Assembly (NCBI GenBank): GCA_026396415.1
Contig: JAPLWX010000010.1
Span: forward strand, 1 to 37,285
DNA: 37,285 nucleotides
Reading direction: 5' to 3'
From: Microcaldota archaeon
GTDB lineage: Archaea > Micrarchaeota > Micrarchaeia > Anstonellales > Anstonellaceae
Shown here: positions 27,311 to 34,824 of the stretch, in pieces
Layout: each line of letters opens with the position of its first letter
Numbering within the stretch: position 1 is the stretch's first letter
Notes under the pieces: generated by a model
The model's input: only the letters and a program-made list of their open reading frames with translations
Database searches by the model: none
Told to the model about the DNA's origin: nothing
Translations under genes and position numbers: made by a program

Positions 27311-28165
27311 ATGATGGATATTAAGAACCAGATTTTTTACGGGGATTCCGCTGATATATTGACGAAATACCCTTCGAATTCGGTGGACCTTATTGTTACG
27401 TCCCCACCCTATTCAAATAGACGAAAGCGTTCTTATGGAGGCATAAGTCCTGACAGATATGTAGAGTGGTTTTTGCCGATTAGTAAGGAATTATATCGCA
27501 TATTGAAACAAGATGGTTCCTTCGTTCTGAATATTAAAGAAGGAGCAAATGGGGAGCGAGAAATCTACGTGCTTGAACTGATTTTGGCTCTGCGTAAGCA
27601 AGGATGGTACTGGACCGAGGAATATATCTGGTATAAAACCACATGCATGCCAGGCAAATGGCCAAATCGGTTCAGAGACGCGTGGGAGCGCTGCTTGCAA
27701 TTTACTAAAGGAAGGAAATTTCGTATGAACCAGCGCGCAGTTAAGATACCTATTGGAAACTGGGCAAAGAAGAGGATGAAGAATCTCTCAGAAAATGACA
27801 CAGTGAGAACAGCTTCAGCTACAAATAGTGGATTTGGGCGAAAAGTAGAAAATTGGGCGAATAAGCGCACAGTATACCCAGATAACGTCTTAAAAATCGC
27901 ACCAGTATGCAAGAACCACAATCACAGTGCAGTTTACCCAAAAGAACTGCCCGCGTGGTTTATCAAACTGTTTTCAAAACGAGGGGGAATAGTTCTAGAT
28001 CCATTTATCGGCTCTGGAACCACCGCAATTGCAGCGGTTGAATTGGACCGCCATTATTCCGGGGTTGAATTGAATAAAACGTATTACCAAATAGCGAAAA
28101 AAAATGTTCAAAATGCTTTGCACACTAAAGCAGCATCAATTTCGACTATCAAAGCTCCTCGATGA
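27311..28165 (+). CDS. DNA methyltransferase, beta class (N4-cytosine or N6-adenine)
   Basis: The catalytic motif TSPPY is at residues 30-34 and the AdoMet-binding motif DPFIGSGTT at 230-238. This order defines beta-class amino-methyltransferases; TSPPY is most usual for N4-cytosine enzymes, but N6-adenine cannot be excluded. The 284-residue length is normal for a stand-alone enzyme with a target-recognition segment in the middle (residues 110-205). Its natural role would be to protect host DNA from the nuclease encoded opposite. Its 3' end overlaps that of the nuclease gene by 17 bases. Codon use and AT content differ from core genes, indicating acquisition. Starts ATG at 27311 or 27314. Confidence 0.88.
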   Translation: MMDIKNQIFYGDSADILTKYPSNSVDLIVTSPPYSNRRKRSYGGISPDRYVEWFLPISKELYRILKQDGSFVLNIKEGANGEREIYVLELILALRKQGWYWTEEYIWYKTTCMPGKWPNRFRDAWERCLQFTKGRKFRMNQRAVKIPIGNWAKKRMKNLSENDTVRTASATNSGFGRKVENWANKRTVYPDNVLKIAPVCKNHNHSAVYPKELPAWFIKLFSKRGGIVLDPFIGSGTTAIAAVELDRHYSGVELNKTYYQIAKKNVQNALHTKAASISTIKAPR

Positions 28166-29129
28166 GAACACCCTGTGGCGTAATCTTGTATTTAGGATTA
28201 CTGAGAACAGTATCTACTGGGTTCTGGAATAAGACTGGTGTATTCGTTGCTGTTCGCGTCTTTTTGTTAATTCCACCGATAAAATAAATCCAATATTTCT
28301 CTTTGAGATTCTTAGCCACCTTTATTTCATTATCACTCATATAGAATCGAGTCTTGGAACTTTTTGCGCCTTTAACCTCAATGAAACGGTCGTGAACCAT
28401 GCCCCTACTTTCTCCATCAAAGGATGCTATATCGTATCCTGCATCCGGCCGCAGTTTGCTAATATGGCTGATACATGAACATTCGACCTTTCCTCCAGCA
28501 GTTCTGACCCGCTCTTTTTCGTGTGCCAACATCAGTTCTTCTGCGATTTCACCAATTTCCTTTCGCTCAGCAAGATATTCTTCGAGTGCTTTTGGAGTCC
28601 AACCTTTTCCTTCAGCCAACAAATTAGCCACAGCATCCACATATTCTGATTTAACTTCCAATATTGACGGGAGACGATTTAGCAATTCAAGTTGAATGAG
28701 ATGCTCAATAATTAATGGATCGCCCTTCATAGGTAAACTGTCGACATCTGACCAGCGGAATGTTTGCGCATCATATACTTTTGTGAAGCATCCCAGTATC
28801 TCTATTGTGGCATTGCAGTAACGTCCTGAAAAATAATGTTTTCGGATTAACATTCGTTTTTGGTCACTCGTCAATTCATAGGATTTCTCAGGGTTCAAAT
28901 CCAAAAATTCTTTCCCAGACTCAGAAACTGTTATTCTATCATCTTTCGATGAGAGAAACTCTAATGATTCTGCGAATTGAATTGACAAATAATGGTCAGG
29001 CAAAACACTATCGATTACAATTGTTTCACATTGCTGAACAACAGACGCCTGAGTTACTGATTCGCTAGGAGGAGCAATTGCGGTAGCGGCAAGAAGTACA
29101 CGGTTTAACTCCGCAAGACGAATGATCAT
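28149..29129 (-). CDS. DUF3883-type PD-(D/E)XK nuclease, 326 aa
   Basis: The C-terminal 130 residues match the DUF3883 pattern: GEIAEELMLAHEKERV, then AGYDIASFD and RFIEVKGAKSSKTRFYMSDNEIKVA. The D...EVK arrangement is a PD-(D/E)XK nuclease core. The N-terminal 190 residues are helical, and could bind DNA or contact the helicase. DUF3883 domains are frequent in restriction and defence genes. The start codon directly follows the helicase stop (TAAATG), so the two are translationally coupled. It is the last gene of the three-gene operon. I infer that it cuts unmodified DNA located by the helicase. Confidence 0.75.
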   Translation of the reverse strand: MIIRLAELNRVLLAATAIAPPSESVTQASVVQQCETIVIDSVLPDHYLSIQFAESLEFLSSKDDRITVSESGKEFLDLNPEKSYELTSDQKRMLIRKHYFSGRYCNATIEILGCFTKVYDAQTFRWSDVDSLPMKGDPLIIEHLIQLELLNRLPSILEVKSEYVDAVANLLAEGKGWTPKALEEYLAERKEIGEIAEELMLAHEKERVRTAGGKVECSCISHISKLRPDAGYDIASFDGESRGMVHDRFIEVKGAKSSKTRFYMSDNEIKVAKNLKEKYWIYFIGGINKKTRTATNTPVLFQNPVDTVLSNPKYKITPQGVLIEEL

Positions 29130-31031
29130 TTAATCTTGCCCCAACTCCTTCTTAAGCCCGGTTAGGACAGCTGCGAAATCTTTTTCTTCGTCAATTTCTT
29201 CGCTGAAGGCAGATTCGTCAACATCCAAATCAAGCACGCTGAAATCCTCATCGAGAATTCTTAGCATTCTGTTCTGCTTTTCCTCTAATCGGCTGTCAAT
29301 TATTTCATCAATTGTATTCTTCGATAGGAATATCCAATAATGAACGTGATCGTTCTCTCCAAGGCCAACACGGTGGATACGATCCAATGATTGCATATAG
29401 TGTGCGCCGTTAAATGTGCGATCAACATAGATTGCATGCATGCAGATTTTATGAAGTGAAATGGACTCTGCGCATGCTCCCGGATTAACAATAAGCAATT
29501 TGCGCGAGTCGATAGTCTTAAAATCGCGAATAATTCTCTCGCGGTTAATTTCTTCATCTTCTTTATCATCCTTTGGGATTCCACCATGAATTATCATAGG
29601 ATTTAAATCCGCTAAAGAATTCCTTAATGTTTCGATGTTATGAACAAAACTAGTCCATACAACAACTTTCTCCCCCTTTTCAGATACAAGAGTTCGAACA
29701 AGTTTCTCAACTGCAAGTAGTTTTTTTGGTTTTTCATAACTTGAGTAGCGATCAATTATTTCCATGATAGAAAGACCAGATGCTTCCAAAGGAGGGATTT
29801 GAAATTCAGGTGAATTTTCCTTTAATAGACTCGGATTACTAGCCGCTTGTAGTAGCCGAACCATTCGAGCCTTACGCCACGGTCTCAGTTTTACGCGGTC
29901 TTCCGGAGCATGGACGACATCCGACAAAACTTTTGTTGCCAATGCACGATATATAGTTGATTGGTACGGGCTTAGTTCCACCGAGATTCTATGAAACTGT
30001 GGAATCGGTAGCCCTAAATCGCGTTTATGTATTCTCCAATAAAGTGGACCCAAATCTCTCCGAACTTGTTCTTCTAATGCCGTTGGATTCTTGTCAAATT
30101 GATACCTGAACTGTTCCCGTTCTCCTAAAATAGTCTCATTGGGCCATAAAAAAGCTATTTGACTCCATATATCCTGAATGGAGTTTGGAATTGGAGTGCC
30201 AGTTAAAATTACCCTTCTCTTTGCAAAGGGTGCCAAGGACAAGACGACATCGGCCCATCTGCCTCCCTCTATTCGTTTGATGTTATGAGATTCGTCCAAT
30301 ACTAACATAGCTTTCGATTGCCGTAATAAGGCCTCTAAATCTTGCTGGTCATTGGCTGCCATTTGATACGAGAGCAAAACTAAATCGGCGTTTGCCGCGT
30401 CTCGAAATAACCCGGGTCGGCTCGTTTTGCTTCCACTGATTCTTACTGTGTTTGGTTTTTTGCCAAAACAGGCTTCATATTCATCTTCCCAAGGCATAAA
30501 ACACGCACGAGGTCCGATTACAACAAGGCGATCAATCTCGTGGTTTTCTCTTAATATTGCATATGCAGCTAGAACAATGGATGTTTTTCCACTGCCAGGA
30601 ACTGAGAAATTTGCAGCTCCGTCTAATCCAGATAAATGTGCCACAGCTGGAATCTGGTATAATTTTAATGGACGTTTGAATCCTGGAACCGTTAGGGTAG
30701 CGACACGGTTTTTCTTTAACTCGGAACCGATTTCTTTGGATCTTTCAAACCGATGATGCTCATCTTCAACGTCCATGGCTAGCTTTGATGCTCTTTCGTC
30801 GAGTTCAAAACTGATCCCTTTTTCACGCAAGTATTGTAAGGTTTCTTGGAGTTTTTTATGTACATTAGAACCTGCGTCTATGTAAAGCGCGGAAGTCCCT
30901 TCATCACGCTGGAATCCAAGTATGTTGACAAAATATATTCTGTGTTGCCAGCCTAATATGGGCGAATCTTTTTCTGCGGTTAATTGTATTATACCGTTAA
31001 CTACTGAAATTCTTACGACTTCCGTGCCCAT
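29130..31031 (-). CDS. SNF2-type superfamily 2 helicase/translocase, 633 aa
   Basis: The SF2 motifs appear in order: Walker A SVPGSGKTS near residue 140, DESH box LVLDESHNIK near 245, ILTGTPIPNS (motif III), VVWTSF (motif IV), VNPGACAESISL (motif V) and SLDRIHRVG (motif VI). The arrangement is SNF2-like, so it probably moves along double-stranded DNA rather than unwinding it. The first 110 residues have no recognised fold and may bind a partner. The last 50 residues are very acidic. The gene lies four bases after the ParB-like gene and abuts the nuclease gene. In comparable ATP-dependent restriction systems such as CglI/NgoAVII, a separate helicase-like subunit drives cleavage. Confidence 0.87.
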   Translation of the reverse strand: MGTEVVRISVVNGIIQLTAEKDSPILGWQHRIYFVNILGFQRDEGTSALYIDAGSNVHKKLQETLQYLREKGISFELDERASKLAMDVEDEHHRFERSKEIGSELKKNRVATLTVPGFKRPLKLYQIPAVAHLSGLDGAANFSVPGSGKTSIVLAAYAILRENHEIDRLVVIGPRACFMPWEDEYEACFGKKPNTVRISGSKTSRPGLFRDAANADLVLLSYQMAANDQQDLEALLRQSKAMLVLDESHNIKRIEGGRWADVVLSLAPFAKRRVILTGTPIPNSIQDIWSQIAFLWPNETILGEREQFRYQFDKNPTALEEQVRRDLGPLYWRIHKRDLGLPIPQFHRISVELSPYQSTIYRALATKVLSDVVHAPEDRVKLRPWRKARMVRLLQAASNPSLLKENSPEFQIPPLEASGLSIMEIIDRYSSYEKPKKLLAVEKLVRTLVSEKGEKVVVWTSFVHNIETLRNSLADLNPMIIHGGIPKDDKEDEEINRERIIRDFKTIDSRKLLIVNPGACAESISLHKICMHAIYVDRTFNGAHYMQSLDRIHRVGLGENDHVHYWIFLSKNTIDEIIDSRLEEKQNRMLRILDEDFSVLDLDVDESAFSEEIDEEKDFAAVLTGLKKELGQD

Positions 31032-31035
31032 AGTA

Positions 31036-32208
31036 TCAGCACTTCGTTCTTGTTAGTATCACATATAGCGTACCAACTTTGGACTTTAATTCCTCTAATG
31101 ACTTAATTAGTTCTTTGTCTTGCATATGTGCGGGATTGCTCGGATCTATAGCCCCTATCATCGCAATTGCTCTTTCTACCAGTTGTTTAGGCTTTTCTTT
31201 TTCCTCCTTTGCATCAACCATTTCAATTGCAAGACGGAATCGATCAACTAGATCACTTGTGACAGACTCTTTATGATTGTCTGGCTGAAAGCCAGTTACC
31301 ATTGTTTCTTTTGCATTTTTATCTTGCATTATACCTCTAAGTTTTCTAACCTCTAGATAAGTTACATTTTCACTTTCAATAAGGCGAAAGGCAATTGGTA
31401 TGACTTCTGCGGCAGCTTTTTTTGAGACTTTATTTAATAATGGTTCTACGACATTATCATTTAAACTATTGAACAGCTCGACTTTGCGTTGACCTTGAAA
31501 TTTTATATATTGGCCTTTCTGATTTGTAGATTCCAAGTAACTATCGATTAACTCTAAAACTTTTAGTCGGCTTTTAAGTTCATTTATAGTAAATCTTCCC
31601 CCTAGCGATTGGGATATTTCTGTAAGAGTCAATCCGCTTTTCACACCCTCTCGTAGCTTAAGCAATTCGTTTACGGGTCCGTATTCAAGACGAAAGTCTT
31701 TTGCGAATTGTAAGCCTGCCTCTATGCGCCAGAGTTCCTTCTCATTTATGTTTTTTGGCAAGACGGCAGCTTTCAGATAGCCATATCTATCATTGCCAGT
31801 CTCAGAATGAAGCTTTGAGAGTATAGCCATGCGTCGATTGGCATTAATAACTGCTCCGTCAAACGTGACAAGTCCTGGGTCTAGTTGGCCATGTGTTATT
31901 AAATCATTCATCAAATTCTCGGTTTCATCTGGTTTTTGCTGAAGAAGAATTTCTTGGAGTATCTTGGCGTCTTGTTCAATAGATGGATCTAATTTACGTT
32001 TCAAATCACTTTCTTTCTTAAGAAGTTCTGCGCTAAAACGTCCATTTCTGATATTATAGATAAGCAGCTTTAAAGGAATACGATAGACGGGTAAATATTG
32101 ATTTTGACCACCTATAAGTACTGGAGCTTTGAGTTCTGGAACTAGCTGATTGGGATTGTTTTTTATGTATTCTTCAAGCACTTTAGAGCGCTCCGTAAAG
32201 ATATCCAT
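31036..32208 (-). CDS. ParB/Srx-fold DNA-binding or nuclease-like protein, 390 aa
   Basis: Residues 30-140 resemble the ParB/sulfiredoxin fold: YLPVYRIPLKLLIYNIRNGRF early on, and GLVTFDGAVINANRRMAIL near 113, matching the dGNRR motif of ParB-like domains. A helix-turn-helix-like part follows near 190 (LTLTEISQSLGGRFTINELKSRLKVL). The C-terminal 170 residues are helical. ParB-like domains bind DNA or hydrolyse NTPs, and occur in several defence systems, such as Dnd/Ssp. It starts with ATG behind a strong AGAGGTGA, and is the first gene of the operon. Its job may be target recognition or regulation; that is inference. Confidence 0.65.
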   Translation of the reverse strand: MDIFTERSKVLEEYIKNNPNQLVPELKAPVLIGGQNQYLPVYRIPLKLLIYNIRNGRFSAELLKKESDLKRKLDPSIEQDAKILQEILLQQKPDETENLMNDLITHGQLDPGLVTFDGAVINANRRMAILSKLHSETGNDRYGYLKAAVLPKNINEKELWRIEAGLQFAKDFRLEYGPVNELLKLREGVKSGLTLTEISQSLGGRFTINELKSRLKVLELIDSYLESTNQKGQYIKFQGQRKVELFNSLNDNVVEPLLNKVSKKAAAEVIPIAFRLIESENVTYLEVRKLRGIMQDKNAKETMVTGFQPDNHKESVTSDLVDRFRLAIEMVDAKEEKEKPKQLVERAIAMIGAIDPSNPAHMQDKELIKSLEELKSKVGTLYVILTRTKC

Positions 32209-32426: not shown

Positions 32427-32936
32427 ATGCAACAAAGTTGCCTCAAGCTAACAAGAAGCGAACAGCACTTCCTAACATGCCTCGCAGAGGGCAGCGACAA
32501 GAACGACTCGAAGATAGCAAAGGAAATGGGGCTTAACCGCTCCTCCATTTCGCGCATAAGGAAAAAGCTCTTGGAGGAAGGCGTGCTGACCGGCCGTTAT
32601 CCCCCGCTTGATTTGGAGAAAATGGGCGTCTGCTTCTATCACGTGATTGTTTTCCAGTGGAATGCCTATGCAGACAAGAAACTGACGCAGAAAATGGAGA
32701 AGGATTTCACTTCCACGCCGCACACAATCTATTTCGCCGAGGGCTCGAACCCCGGCAGCAAGTACATCGCCAACATGGCGTTCCTTACCTTCGAGGAGTA
32801 CAACGATTTCCTTGCAGAGTTCAAGGAAAAGTACGGGAAGTACATCTCCGGCCTTGAATCATTCTTTATCCAGCCAAAGCGCATACTCAAGGAAGGTTAC
32901 GGAGACTTGGCAAAGTTGCTGATTGGAGGTGTGTAA
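32427..32936 (+). CDS. Lrp/AsnC-like transcriptional regulator, 169 aa
   Basis: An N-terminal winged helix (LTRSEQHFLTCLAEG...KIAKEMGLNRSSISRIRKKLLEEGVL, residues 7-55) is followed by a RAM-like alpha/beta domain (VCFYHVIVFQWNAYADKKL, NMAFLTFEEYNDFLAEFKEKYGKYI). The architecture matches Lrp-type regulators, though the second domain is divergent. The message appears leaderless. The next gene starts two bases after its stop codon with GGAGGTG as ribosome-binding site, so it probably controls the surface-protein operon it begins, and possibly the divergent restriction operon. Confidence 0.75.
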   Translation: MQQSCLKLTRSEQHFLTCLAEGSDKNDSKIAKEMGLNRSSISRIRKKLLEEGVLTGRYPPLDLEKMGVCFYHVIVFQWNAYADKKLTQKMEKDFTSTPHTIYFAEGSNPGSKYIANMAFLTFEEYNDFLAEFKEKYGKYISGLESFFIQPKRILKEGYGDLAKLLIGGV

Positions 32937-32937
32937 G

Positions 32938-34824
32938 ATGGACCGGCACGCAAACATAATTGCTTTTGCCGTTGTAATGATGCTGATCCCGACTGCTTTT
33001 TCTGCCGCCACCTATGACGACTGCCTTAATGCCATAAATGCCATGTCTCCGCCAATCAAGGATGCGCAATCCCGCCTGGACTTTCTGAACAGCAAACTCA
33101 ATGACGCGAACACGTATGGAATATCTTCCCCAACACATTCCTCAGCCGCAACCAGCGCGCAAAACCTGCTCACCAAGGCAAAAGCCTCTGAACACTCAGC
33201 AAGCGCGGATTTCGCAGGCGCAAAATACGATGCCTGCGTGTATGACGCATCAAGCGCAAAAAACTACGCGTCACAGGCAGGAACCATAGCGGATTCCTCC
33301 GCAATTTTGGTCTTTTCCATGCTCGCCGCTCAACTGAATTATGAAATAACAACAGACCAGACTTCCCTCCAGCTTGCAGATGGAACCTCAACCACCGTTC
33401 TTATCCGGCTGGCATCCCGCGACAACAGGAAGCTGGACTGCGGCTACCAGACATCTCAAACCCCGTTGCAGGAGCTTGGGATAATCCCCCCTTCGGGCAC
33501 GCAGAGCTTCCCGGCGACCGTGCAGGCACCGCCCAGCGGCAACGGCACGATGCAGTTCCTTGTCTATGTGTCCTGCTCTGTCGGAAGCTACATGAGCGGC
33601 GAAAAGCAGGCGGCAATAGAAGTACAATACCGGCCCGACCCAGTCCTCCTTGCAATCAACCAAGCAAACAAGAGCATAGCCAGCGCGCAGACCTGGATTG
33701 ACATGGCAAGCGGCGTTATCGGCAATGCCTCTGACATCGGGATGGATACGAGGAACGAAATCGCCGCAGTTGCAACCTCCAAGGGCCTGCTGCTGAATGC
33801 AAGGGATTACCTGCAAAGCGCGCAGACATATATTTCCTCAAGCGACGAGGGGGCGAAAGCCGACGCGGACAAGGCAAATGACTATGCCACCCAGGCGGGG
33901 GAGAAGGCAAGAACCGCCTATGAATCGCTGAACAGCAACATTGAGACGTGCAAGGAGGCTTACAGACAGATTGTCTCCGCGCAGGCTGATATATCCGATG
34001 CCGATGCCATTTATACAAAGCTCGCTTCGGTTGTGAGGAGCCTGCCTGGCGAGATGAACGCTGGCGCGGCAGCGCAGGACGTGGAGGCGCAAAGGCAGAA
34101 GCTTGACAGGGCGAAGAACGAGAACTCGCAGGCAAAGACGCAGCTTTCAGCAGGCTATTGCGGGCAGTCGGTGAACAGTGGCATAAGCGCGAGGAACGAC
34201 GCGGCTGACGCGAGTAATCAACTAAGCCGCGTGGCGGAAAGGATGAAGGATACCATAGTGTCCGCGCTGGATGCAGCTTCGTTGCAAACGGAAAGCAAAA
34301 TCGGGGCTGCGAGGAATGCGACTGCAGCAGCCGGAGGTACTTTCCTGGCTGATTCCGCCAAGACAATATACGCGCAGCAGCAGCTCACGGATGCCCAAAC
34401 CGCGCTGCTTGGCGCGCAGGGGGCAGTGGAAAGCGCGAAGCAGGCCACCAGCCTCTCTGATTTCCTTGATAAAACAGCTGATGCATTCGGAAAGCTGCAA
34501 AACGTGGACATTGTTGCCGATTCAAGCCTGCAGAGCGCCGACTCTGCCAGAAATGATGCTTATGTGAAGTACGGGGTTGCAATTGCTGCAGTCATTGTTG
34601 CCGTTGGGGTTGGATTCCTTTTCTGGAACCGGAAGCAGGGGAGGGAAAGGAAGGGCAAACCCAGCCCGAAAGTTGAGCGTCTTCTTACAGCGAGGGAATA
34701 TGGGGAAGCAGCCGAACGCTATGCCTTAAAGCACGAATACCAAAAAGCGGCGGAATATTACGCTAAAGCAGGCAAATACGAGAAAGCCAAGGAAATGTAC
34801 AAGAAATCAATCAAGAAGAGGTGA
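32938..34824 (+). CDS. Surface-anchored coiled-coil protein with cytoplasmic TPR-like tail, 628 aa
   Basis: Residues 1-23 form a signal peptide (ANIIAFAVVMMLIPTAFSA). The long exported part is mostly helical repeats rich in Ala, Ser, Asp and Lys (SAQNLLTKAKASEHSASADFAGAKYDACVYDASSA-type units), interrupted by a beta domain at about 125-225 that looks Ig-like. A single transmembrane helix lies at about 548-567 (YGVAIAAVIVAVGVGFLFW), then a basic stop-transfer (NRKQGRERKGK). The last 45 residues resemble a TPR (YGEAAERYALKHEYQKAAEYYAKAGKYEKAKEMYKKS). So an outside stalk is linked to an inside protein-binding module. ATG 32938 is fixed by GGAGGTG. Confidence 0.75.
   Translation: MDRHANIIAFAVVMMLIPTAFSAATYDDCLNAINAMSPPIKDAQSRLDFLNSKLNDANTYGISSPTHSSAATSAQNLLTKAKASEHSASADFAGAKYDACVYDASSAKNYASQAGTIADSSAILVFSMLAAQLNYEITTDQTSLQLADGTSTTVLIRLASRDNRKLDCGYQTSQTPLQELGIIPPSGTQSFPATVQAPPSGNGTMQFLVYVSCSVGSYMSGEKQAAIEVQYRPDPVLLAINQANKSIASAQTWIDMASGVIGNASDIGMDTRNEIAAVATSKGLLLNARDYLQSAQTYISSSDEGAKADADKANDYATQAGEKARTAYESLNSNIETCKEAYRQIVSAQADISDADAIYTKLASVVRSLPGEMNAGAAAQDVEAQRQKLDRAKNENSQAKTQLSAGYCGQSVNSGISARNDAADASNQLSRVAERMKDTIVSALDAASLQTESKIGAARNATAAAGGTFLADSAKTIYAQQQLTDAQTALLGAQGAVESAKQATSLSDFLDKTADAFGKLQNVDIVADSSLQSADSARNDAYVKYGVAIAAVIVAVGVGFLFWNRKQGRERKGKPSPKVERLLTAREYGEAAERYALKHEYQKAAEYYAKAGKYEKAKEMYKKSIKKR

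Follow-up and report, generated by a model that had tools for sequence, protein, structure and literature searches.

Within a stretch of 37,285 nucleotides from a Microcaldota archaeon (contig JAPLWX010000010.1 of assembly GCA_026396415.1; the whole stretch is hereafter the window), four adjoining genes encode a DNA methyltransferase, a NOV_C (DUF3883) nuclease, an SNF2-type ATPase and a ParB-fold protein. We propose, with a probability of roughly 0.7, that this locus is an ATP-dependent restriction-modification (R-M) system in which a three-gene module, ParB-SNF2-NOV, stands in the place of a Type II endonuclease. This reading follows from the conserved order of the module, its linkage to methyltransferases that are nonetheless exchanged, the occurrence of an EcoO109I-family endonuclease as an alternative partner of the same methyltransferase, and the intact catalytic residues of the nuclease and the motor. 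It draws further on the loss of presumed catalytic residues in at least two endonuclease families encoded before ParB, and on the restriction systems that occupy the paralogous and sister slots. The four genes are arranged as follows.

27311-28165, plus strand: beta-class DNA methyltransferase, open reading frame (ORF) of 284 amino acids (aa), PF01555
28149-29129, minus strand: NOV_C/DUF3883 nuclease, ORF of 326 aa, PF13020
29130-31031, minus strand: SNF2 ATPase/translocase, ORF of 633 aa, PF00176
31036-32208, minus strand: ParB-like (ParB-fold) protein, ORF of 390 aa, assigned from a structure model

All four ORFs between 27311 and 32208 are intact. The minus-strand operon reads ParB, SNF2, NOV and converges on the plus-strand methyltransferase; the NOV and SNF2 genes abut, four bases separate SNF2 from ParB, and there is a 17-base overlap between NOV and the methyltransferase gene that converges with it. 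The original prediction had named the same four genes from the sequence, and three of its labels are borne out by Pfam, while the ParB-like label is backed by an AlphaFold2 model, structure matches and a family profile. It had also described the block as AT-richer with deviating codon use, and the comparison with the 17 other window genes agrees (GC 0.38-0.42 versus 0.47-0.61; GC at third codon positions 0.30-0.41 versus 0.59-0.82).

The strongest evidence that the module is a restriction arm comes from the partners of its methyltransferase. The window enzyme matches PF01555 (1.1e-44), carries the motifs TSPPY (residues 30-34) and DPFIGSGT (residues 230-237), and finds its best solved-structure match in M.PvuII, an N4-cytosine enzyme (4.7e-26 over residues 7-259); judged from the SPPY motif and this match, it is probably N4-cytosine-specific. 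Free-standing relatives with 52-60% identity occur in more than 40 of 396 Bacteroidota genomes, far more than carry the module, and in 10 of 12 module-free loci examined, with methyltransferases 54-58% identical to that of the window, the neighbour is an EcoO109I-family endonuclease (PF14511, E to 1e-94). These EcoO109I-family Type II systems thus have a single endonuclease where the window has ParB-SNF2-NOV. PF14511 was not found in the module loci, and it had no match in the window's genome, though the control genomes gave no match either. Since the partner of one methyltransferase family is a Type II endonuclease in some loci and ParB-SNF2-NOV in others, the module appears to be the restriction arm of the locus.

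To assess recurrence, we scanned 84,980 species genomes using the SNF2 alignment and took the 80 best loci, which come from many phyla. ParB lies directly before SNF2 in 77 of these loci and NOV directly after it in 67, with both in 65; of the three loci that lack ParB, two are cut by a contig end, as are two of those that lack NOV. An independent search of the 396 Bacteroidota genomes with the ParB profile gave seven new loci, all with an adjacent SNF2 gene and a methyltransferase, and six with NOV, the seventh ending at a contig border. Such joint recurrence across many phyla shows that the genes are not neighbours by chance. The full set is found as a co-directional operon (methyltransferase, ParB, SNF2, NOV) in genome G198 (locus L016), which belongs to another family of the same archaeal class, and on a Paracoccus denitrificans plasmid (L007), where a small BglII-like gene stands between the methyltransferase and ParB. 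Module loci are located on plasmids and viral-collection contigs and also, in many copies, on long contigs or complete chromosomes; a search for the family in viral contigs through ParB alone found nothing. In Nitrosopumilus (L031), an 824 aa SNF2 relative occurs with no ParB, NOV or methyltransferase of the five classes described below nearby.

Methyltransferases make up 97 of the 587 neighbour ORFs within four genes of SNF2, versus 5 of the 434 beyond six (Fisher p 3e-19), and one is present within four genes in 70 of the 80 loci, nine of the ten exceptions being truncated close to the module. Five classes are represented, namely C5 (PF00145), beta-class N4/N6 (PF01555), D12 (PF02086), a large DUF1156-like enzyme and Type III Mod, and the SNF2 tree (110 rows, built quickly and with no bootstraps) shows at least 17 changes of class. 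The motor closest to that of the window (L017, 62%) has a D12 enzyme as its partner, and the methyltransferases of L016 and L027 are 64% identical to that of the window, although the motors of L027 and the window share 41%. The methyltransferase is hence a linked but exchangeable partner, and ParB-SNF2-NOV is the invariant unit. The original prediction had treated all four genes as one set and had named their failure to co-occur elsewhere as a refutation; they do co-occur elsewhere, and the conserved unit comprises three of them.

The ParB-like protein has no significant match among Pfam, PADLOC or NCBIfam models. Its AlphaFold2 model, built from 52 homologues, has a predicted local distance difference test score (pLDDT) of 94.1, and among PDB entries only Spo0J, a ParB protein, matches it below E 0.001 (1vz0; Foldseek E 5.5e-4, probability 1.00). 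The family profile aligns best with ParB structures and recovers, over the ParB core, a canonical-looking ParB of about 300 residues in about 40 of the 396 Bacteroidota genomes, and plasmid homologues are annotated as ParB. The protein shares with the ParB/Spo0J family an N-domain, a Box II-like NANRR motif and helix-turn-helix (HTH)-like helices, and differs from it in having no ParA partner, an additional helical C-terminal part and an SNF2 neighbour. R57, Q108, G118, N124, R126 and Y176 are invariant in the 52 homologues, and the ParB N-domain fold is accompanied by the Box II arginine (R126). ParB-fold proteins bind CTP, ATP or GTP, according to the accessible text of a 2025 survey of the ParB-CTPase fold (PMC12704722), which there makes no mention of an SNF2 or NOV operon. 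The window protein may bind a nucleoside triphosphate (NTP) and form a clamp.

The SNF2 protein matches PF00176 (4.3e-20) and PF00271 (5.2e-8), and its profile aligns with the snf2/rad54-family helicase 1z63 at 3e-43. Its Walker A motif (FSVPGSGKT, ending at T150) and DESH box (residues 246-249) are present, its motor residues are invariant across 10 diverse homologues and its catalytic residues are intact. The nuclease matches PF13020 (1.6e-18), and its structure model (pLDDT 92.6) places winged-helix elements at the N terminus, followed by a PD-(D/E)XK domain in which E197, D233, E251 and K253 are invariant in 45 homologues. As in R-M systems generally, the methyltransferase here is linked to a nuclease whose catalytic site is intact. 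The sites in question lie at the following positions.

31831-31845, minus strand: Box II-like NANRR of the ParB-fold protein (residues 122-126), with N124 and R126 invariant; the expected NTP-contact loop of ParB-fold proteins
30582-30596, minus strand: Walker A GSGKT of SNF2, with G146, G148, K149 and T150 invariant across the 10 diverse homologues
28596-29129, minus strand: winged-helix region of the nuclease (residues 1-178), from the secondary structure of the model; a candidate DNA reader
28200-28595, minus strand: catalytic domain of the nuclease (residues 179-310), with D233...E251-x-K253 in invariant alignment columns

The winged-helix region of NOV and the N terminus of SNF2 are the fastest-changing segments of the module; the former is 21% identical between loci whose motors share 55-70%, and its weak fold matches are to winged-helix proteins and regulators and to the recognition domain of BpuJI (E 0.08-0.2). 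We considered the winged-helix region, segments of ParB and the SNF2 N terminus as target readers by comparing their identity with the methyltransferase, and the outcome was inconsistent between classes. Identity does not drop on a change of class at matched motor identity, and we therefore name no subunit as the reader.

Several branches carry an additional gene before ParB, and these genes bear on how a target might be read. In 22 loci, of which nearly all have a C5 methyltransferase close by, this gene encodes a BanI/DpnII-like protein (PF24447, 1.6e-9). Compared with L247, a BanI relative of orthodox type that neighbours a C5 methyltransferase and is itself assumed to be active, all 22 proteins carry Asp, Asn or Thr in place of the presumed catalytic Glu and are missing the stretch bearing the first Asp, while the TT(S) and DGAG motifs are kept; no structural template was found for the BanI-like profile, and the loss of the active site is read from the comparison with this one relative. 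In seven further loci the gene is BglII-like (PF09195, 1.6e-5, just under the cut-off); set beside BstYI, each of the seven proteins has Gln or Cys where the EVQ motif has Glu, and the upstream Asp has been lost. No nearer relatives of either homologue were found on other plasmids. A third family of 280-320 aa, found in alphaproteobacteria and an actinobacterium (L004, L006, L083, L094, L101), has no Pfam match, and its L101 member matches a PADLOC Type II endonuclease model at 1.1e-21. The homologues that have lost catalytic residues may serve as target readers, and the cutting would then fall to NOV.

The effector varies as well. In four loci without NOV (L041, L046, L050, L078), ParB carries an HNH-like N-terminal extension with a clear Cys/His pattern (PF13391, E 0.012-0.015, below the curated cut-off). 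In three others, a PNP_UDP_1-family gene (1e-25) precedes ParB (L051:5829-6602, L084:5680-6453, L096:5710-6501), which suggests an effector aimed at nucleosides or nucleotides. ParB-SNF2 follows a Type III Mod-Res pair on plasmids of Lactobacillus and Lactococcus (L013, L014, L112, L118). Two accessory arrangements were also seen: on Enterococcus plasmids (L009, L010, L015), ParB and SNF2 are preceded by a protein of 860 aa that contains a sigma-70 region 4 HTH, and in several Clostridia-like loci with a BanI-like gene (L080, L089, L098, L102-L105, L113), a small HTH gene and a gene for a 220-aa, ImmA/IrrE-type-looking metallopeptidase follow NOV.

In the system that we propose, the methyltransferase would modify host DNA at a short target, probably producing N4-methylcytosine, and ParB, SNF2 and NOV would form a restriction complex. 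An unmethylated site would be recognised first, whereupon ParB would load by binding or clamping the DNA under NTP control, SNF2 would move along the DNA using ATP, and NOV would cleave with its PD-(D/E)XK site; in some branches, the Type II endonuclease homologue encoded before ParB, which has lost presumed catalytic residues, could be the reader. The cutting of unmodified DNA, which the original prediction had itself put forward as an inference, keeps that status here, and we likewise infer the formation of a complex and the roles of ParB and SNF2. A more specific version, which we hold only tentatively, is that the locus represents a new type of ATP-dependent restriction, in which an NTP-gated ParB clamp is loaded at unmethylated sites by a reader and passes the DNA to SNF2 and an exchangeable effector; in some branches that reader would be a one-time Type II endonuclease, turned into a specificity subunit after losing its catalytic residues. 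If this were true, ordinary Type II systems would have been converted repeatedly into multi-subunit, ATP-dependent ones.

Four observations weigh against the R-M interpretation or limit its reach. The loci were picked by SNF2 similarity, so that percentages of the 80 are not prevalence estimates. At matched motor identity, the identity of the winged-helix region does not track the methyltransferase class, and no matched specificity domain was found. The PNP-family gene in place of NOV suggests outcomes other than cleavage in some branches, and on the Enterococcus plasmids ParB and SNF2 are present, but NOV is missing and no methyltransferase of the five classes was recognised.

The exchange of effectors among NOV, the HNH-like domain fused to ParB and the PNP_UDP_1 gene would also fit a methylation-linked abortive defence, in which ParB would detect infection or a nucleotide signal and the complex would set off a damaging effector (nuclease, HNH or nucleosidase), stopping the cell instead of cleaving unmodified DNA only; the range of nucleotides bound by ParB-fold proteins in the accessible text of the survey (PMC12704722) points the same way. 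A purely abortive system would need no methyltransferase, however, whereas the linkage is near universal where the contig allows, and NOV is by far the commonest effector, so we consider this explanation unlikely. Less likely still is a modification-dependent, Type IV-like system, in which the module would attack DNA carrying foreign modifications and the methyltransferase would be a passenger or decoy. ParB-fold DUF262 proteins such as GmrS do act in Type IV systems (PMC10952713), and the methyltransferase class varies freely, but methyltransferases are strongly enriched beside the module and the window's family is otherwise found with Type II endonucleases. That the operon is a cassette for the maintenance or segregation of mobile DNA, with ParB partitioning the element and SNF2 remodelling DNA, is suggested by the ParB fold and by the plasmid and viral-collection locations; we regard it as very improbable, as the families that recur within four genes include no ParA, the usual neighbours are a nuclease and a methyltransferase, and many copies are carried by long contigs or complete chromosomes. 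Finally, the convergent orientation and differing gene histories could mean that the methyltransferase and the operon are unrelated neighbours in the window, an explanation to which we give hardly any weight given the co-directional four-gene loci L016 and L007, the enrichment of methyltransferases elsewhere and the low GC common to all four genes.

The R-M interpretation also places the locus among known systems. As the original prediction had expected, the set of four matches no named system in PADLOC, and we found no description of it in Pfam, NCBIfam or the open-access literature; the set is a variant of restriction-modification for which no earlier description was found in open-access papers. 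Its nearest precedents in logic are the CglI/NgoAVII systems and the MORC-SNF2 R-M operons. The nuclease of CglI and NgoAVII is of the phospholipase D (PLD) type with a B3 recognition domain. The window instead has a PD-(D/E)XK NOV_C nuclease with winged helices, an SNF2 motor and an added ParB-fold protein, and Pfam found no PLD domain in its four proteins. What the window has in common with CglI/NgoAVII, as far as the accessible parts of the sources go, is a methyltransferase, a separate nuclease and a separate translocating superfamily 2 (SF2) helicase-like ATPase (PMC4267653, PMC5737866), the last with intact Walker A and DExH motifs in the window. MORC/paraMORC R-M operons, predicted in 2008 by Iyer, combine a SWI2/SNF2 helicase with an exchangeable nuclease, mostly a C5 methyltransferase, and Vsr; from the available part of that paper, they share the SNF2 helicase and exchangeable parts with the window and contain GHKL (MORC) ATPases (PMC2292703). 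A MORC GHKL ATPase is absent from the module and from the recurring neighbour clusters, the flanking HATPase_c_4 gene encoding an AlbA_2 protein, and the accessible text of these sources makes no mention of ParB for CglI/NgoAVII or the MORC operons (PMC4267653, PMC5737866, PMC2292703).

Other systems were considered and set aside. Of the PADLOC models, ZorD of Zorya type I is the most similar to the window SNF2 (5.8e-35), but the score of 39.6 bits compares with a cut-off of 1500 for anti-phage_ZorD, ZorA and ZorB were not found, the window has no fused Mrr nuclease, and it does have a methyltransferase. DISARM, BREX and Dnd/Dpd resemble the window in being defence systems with a methyltransferase or DNA modification and SNF2-type helicases, yet their signature genes are absent from the four genes and the scanned flanks, in line with the earlier claim that the locus lacks DUF1998, BREX and Dnd genes. 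The SNF2 protein is weakly similar to DrmD (1.2e-9) and DrmA (2e-6), far below the NCBIfam cut-off, with no DUF1998 among the scanned genes of the locus and its flanks; PglZ, BrxC/PglY and BrxX were not found in the four genes or the scanned flanks, nor DndACDE or DpdA in the four proteins, where SNF2 is weakly like DpdE. HsdM, HsdS and HsdR of Type I R-M are absent from the window locus and present in a paralogous slot, and Mod and Res of Type III are absent from the window and present beside ParB-SNF2 in lactobacilli.

That paralogous slot (L202, G000:C19:23700-37000), which belongs to the genome of the window itself, contains a complete Type I R-M system whose subunit genes are separated by additional ones, and is bordered by a similar AlbA_2 gene on the far side and a MarR pair on the other. 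In the sister species, the right flank (a MarR gene and a 633-aa gene) is syntenic, and the slot contains an Eco57I-type R-M methylase, an ImmA/IrrE-like gene and a PIN-like gene (the last two named by eye). The slot thus looks like a hot spot for restriction systems. A search for an empty insertion site found none: another restriction locus lies next to the syntenic right flank in the sister species, and no clean left junction was located. Among 295 sampled genomes of the phylum, a relative of the window ParB is present in one other genome, G198, and the window motor shares 41% identity with that of G198 versus 53-62% over the motor with its closest relatives, L017-L019, from Elusimicrobiota, Rhodospirillales and Bacteroidetes. 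This kinship, together with the deviating composition, points to horizontal acquisition of the window system. The MarR-like regulator and the 633-aa protein, which has a C-terminal membrane segment, are themselves a recurring pair, with several copies in the window's genome and one in the sister species, among differing neighbours that include restriction systems in two places. Copies of the pair lie at these positions.

Window 32427-34824: MarR and 633-aa gene pair
G000:C19:21832-24226: copy of the pair
G000:C15:46605-48837: copy of the pair
L192:4542-5445: copy of the pair

If the proposed R-M system is real, a restriction architecture that occurs in many phyla of bacteria and several groups of archaea has gone unnamed because annotation sees only the methyltransferase, and the restriction arm is modular and compatible with at least four classes of methyltransferase. 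The ParB fold would gain a role in self/non-self discrimination outside chromosome partition, and the branches with endonuclease homologues would make it possible to test directly whether Type II endonucleases can become non-cutting specificity subunits. The module would also constitute an unrecorded barrier to gene transfer.

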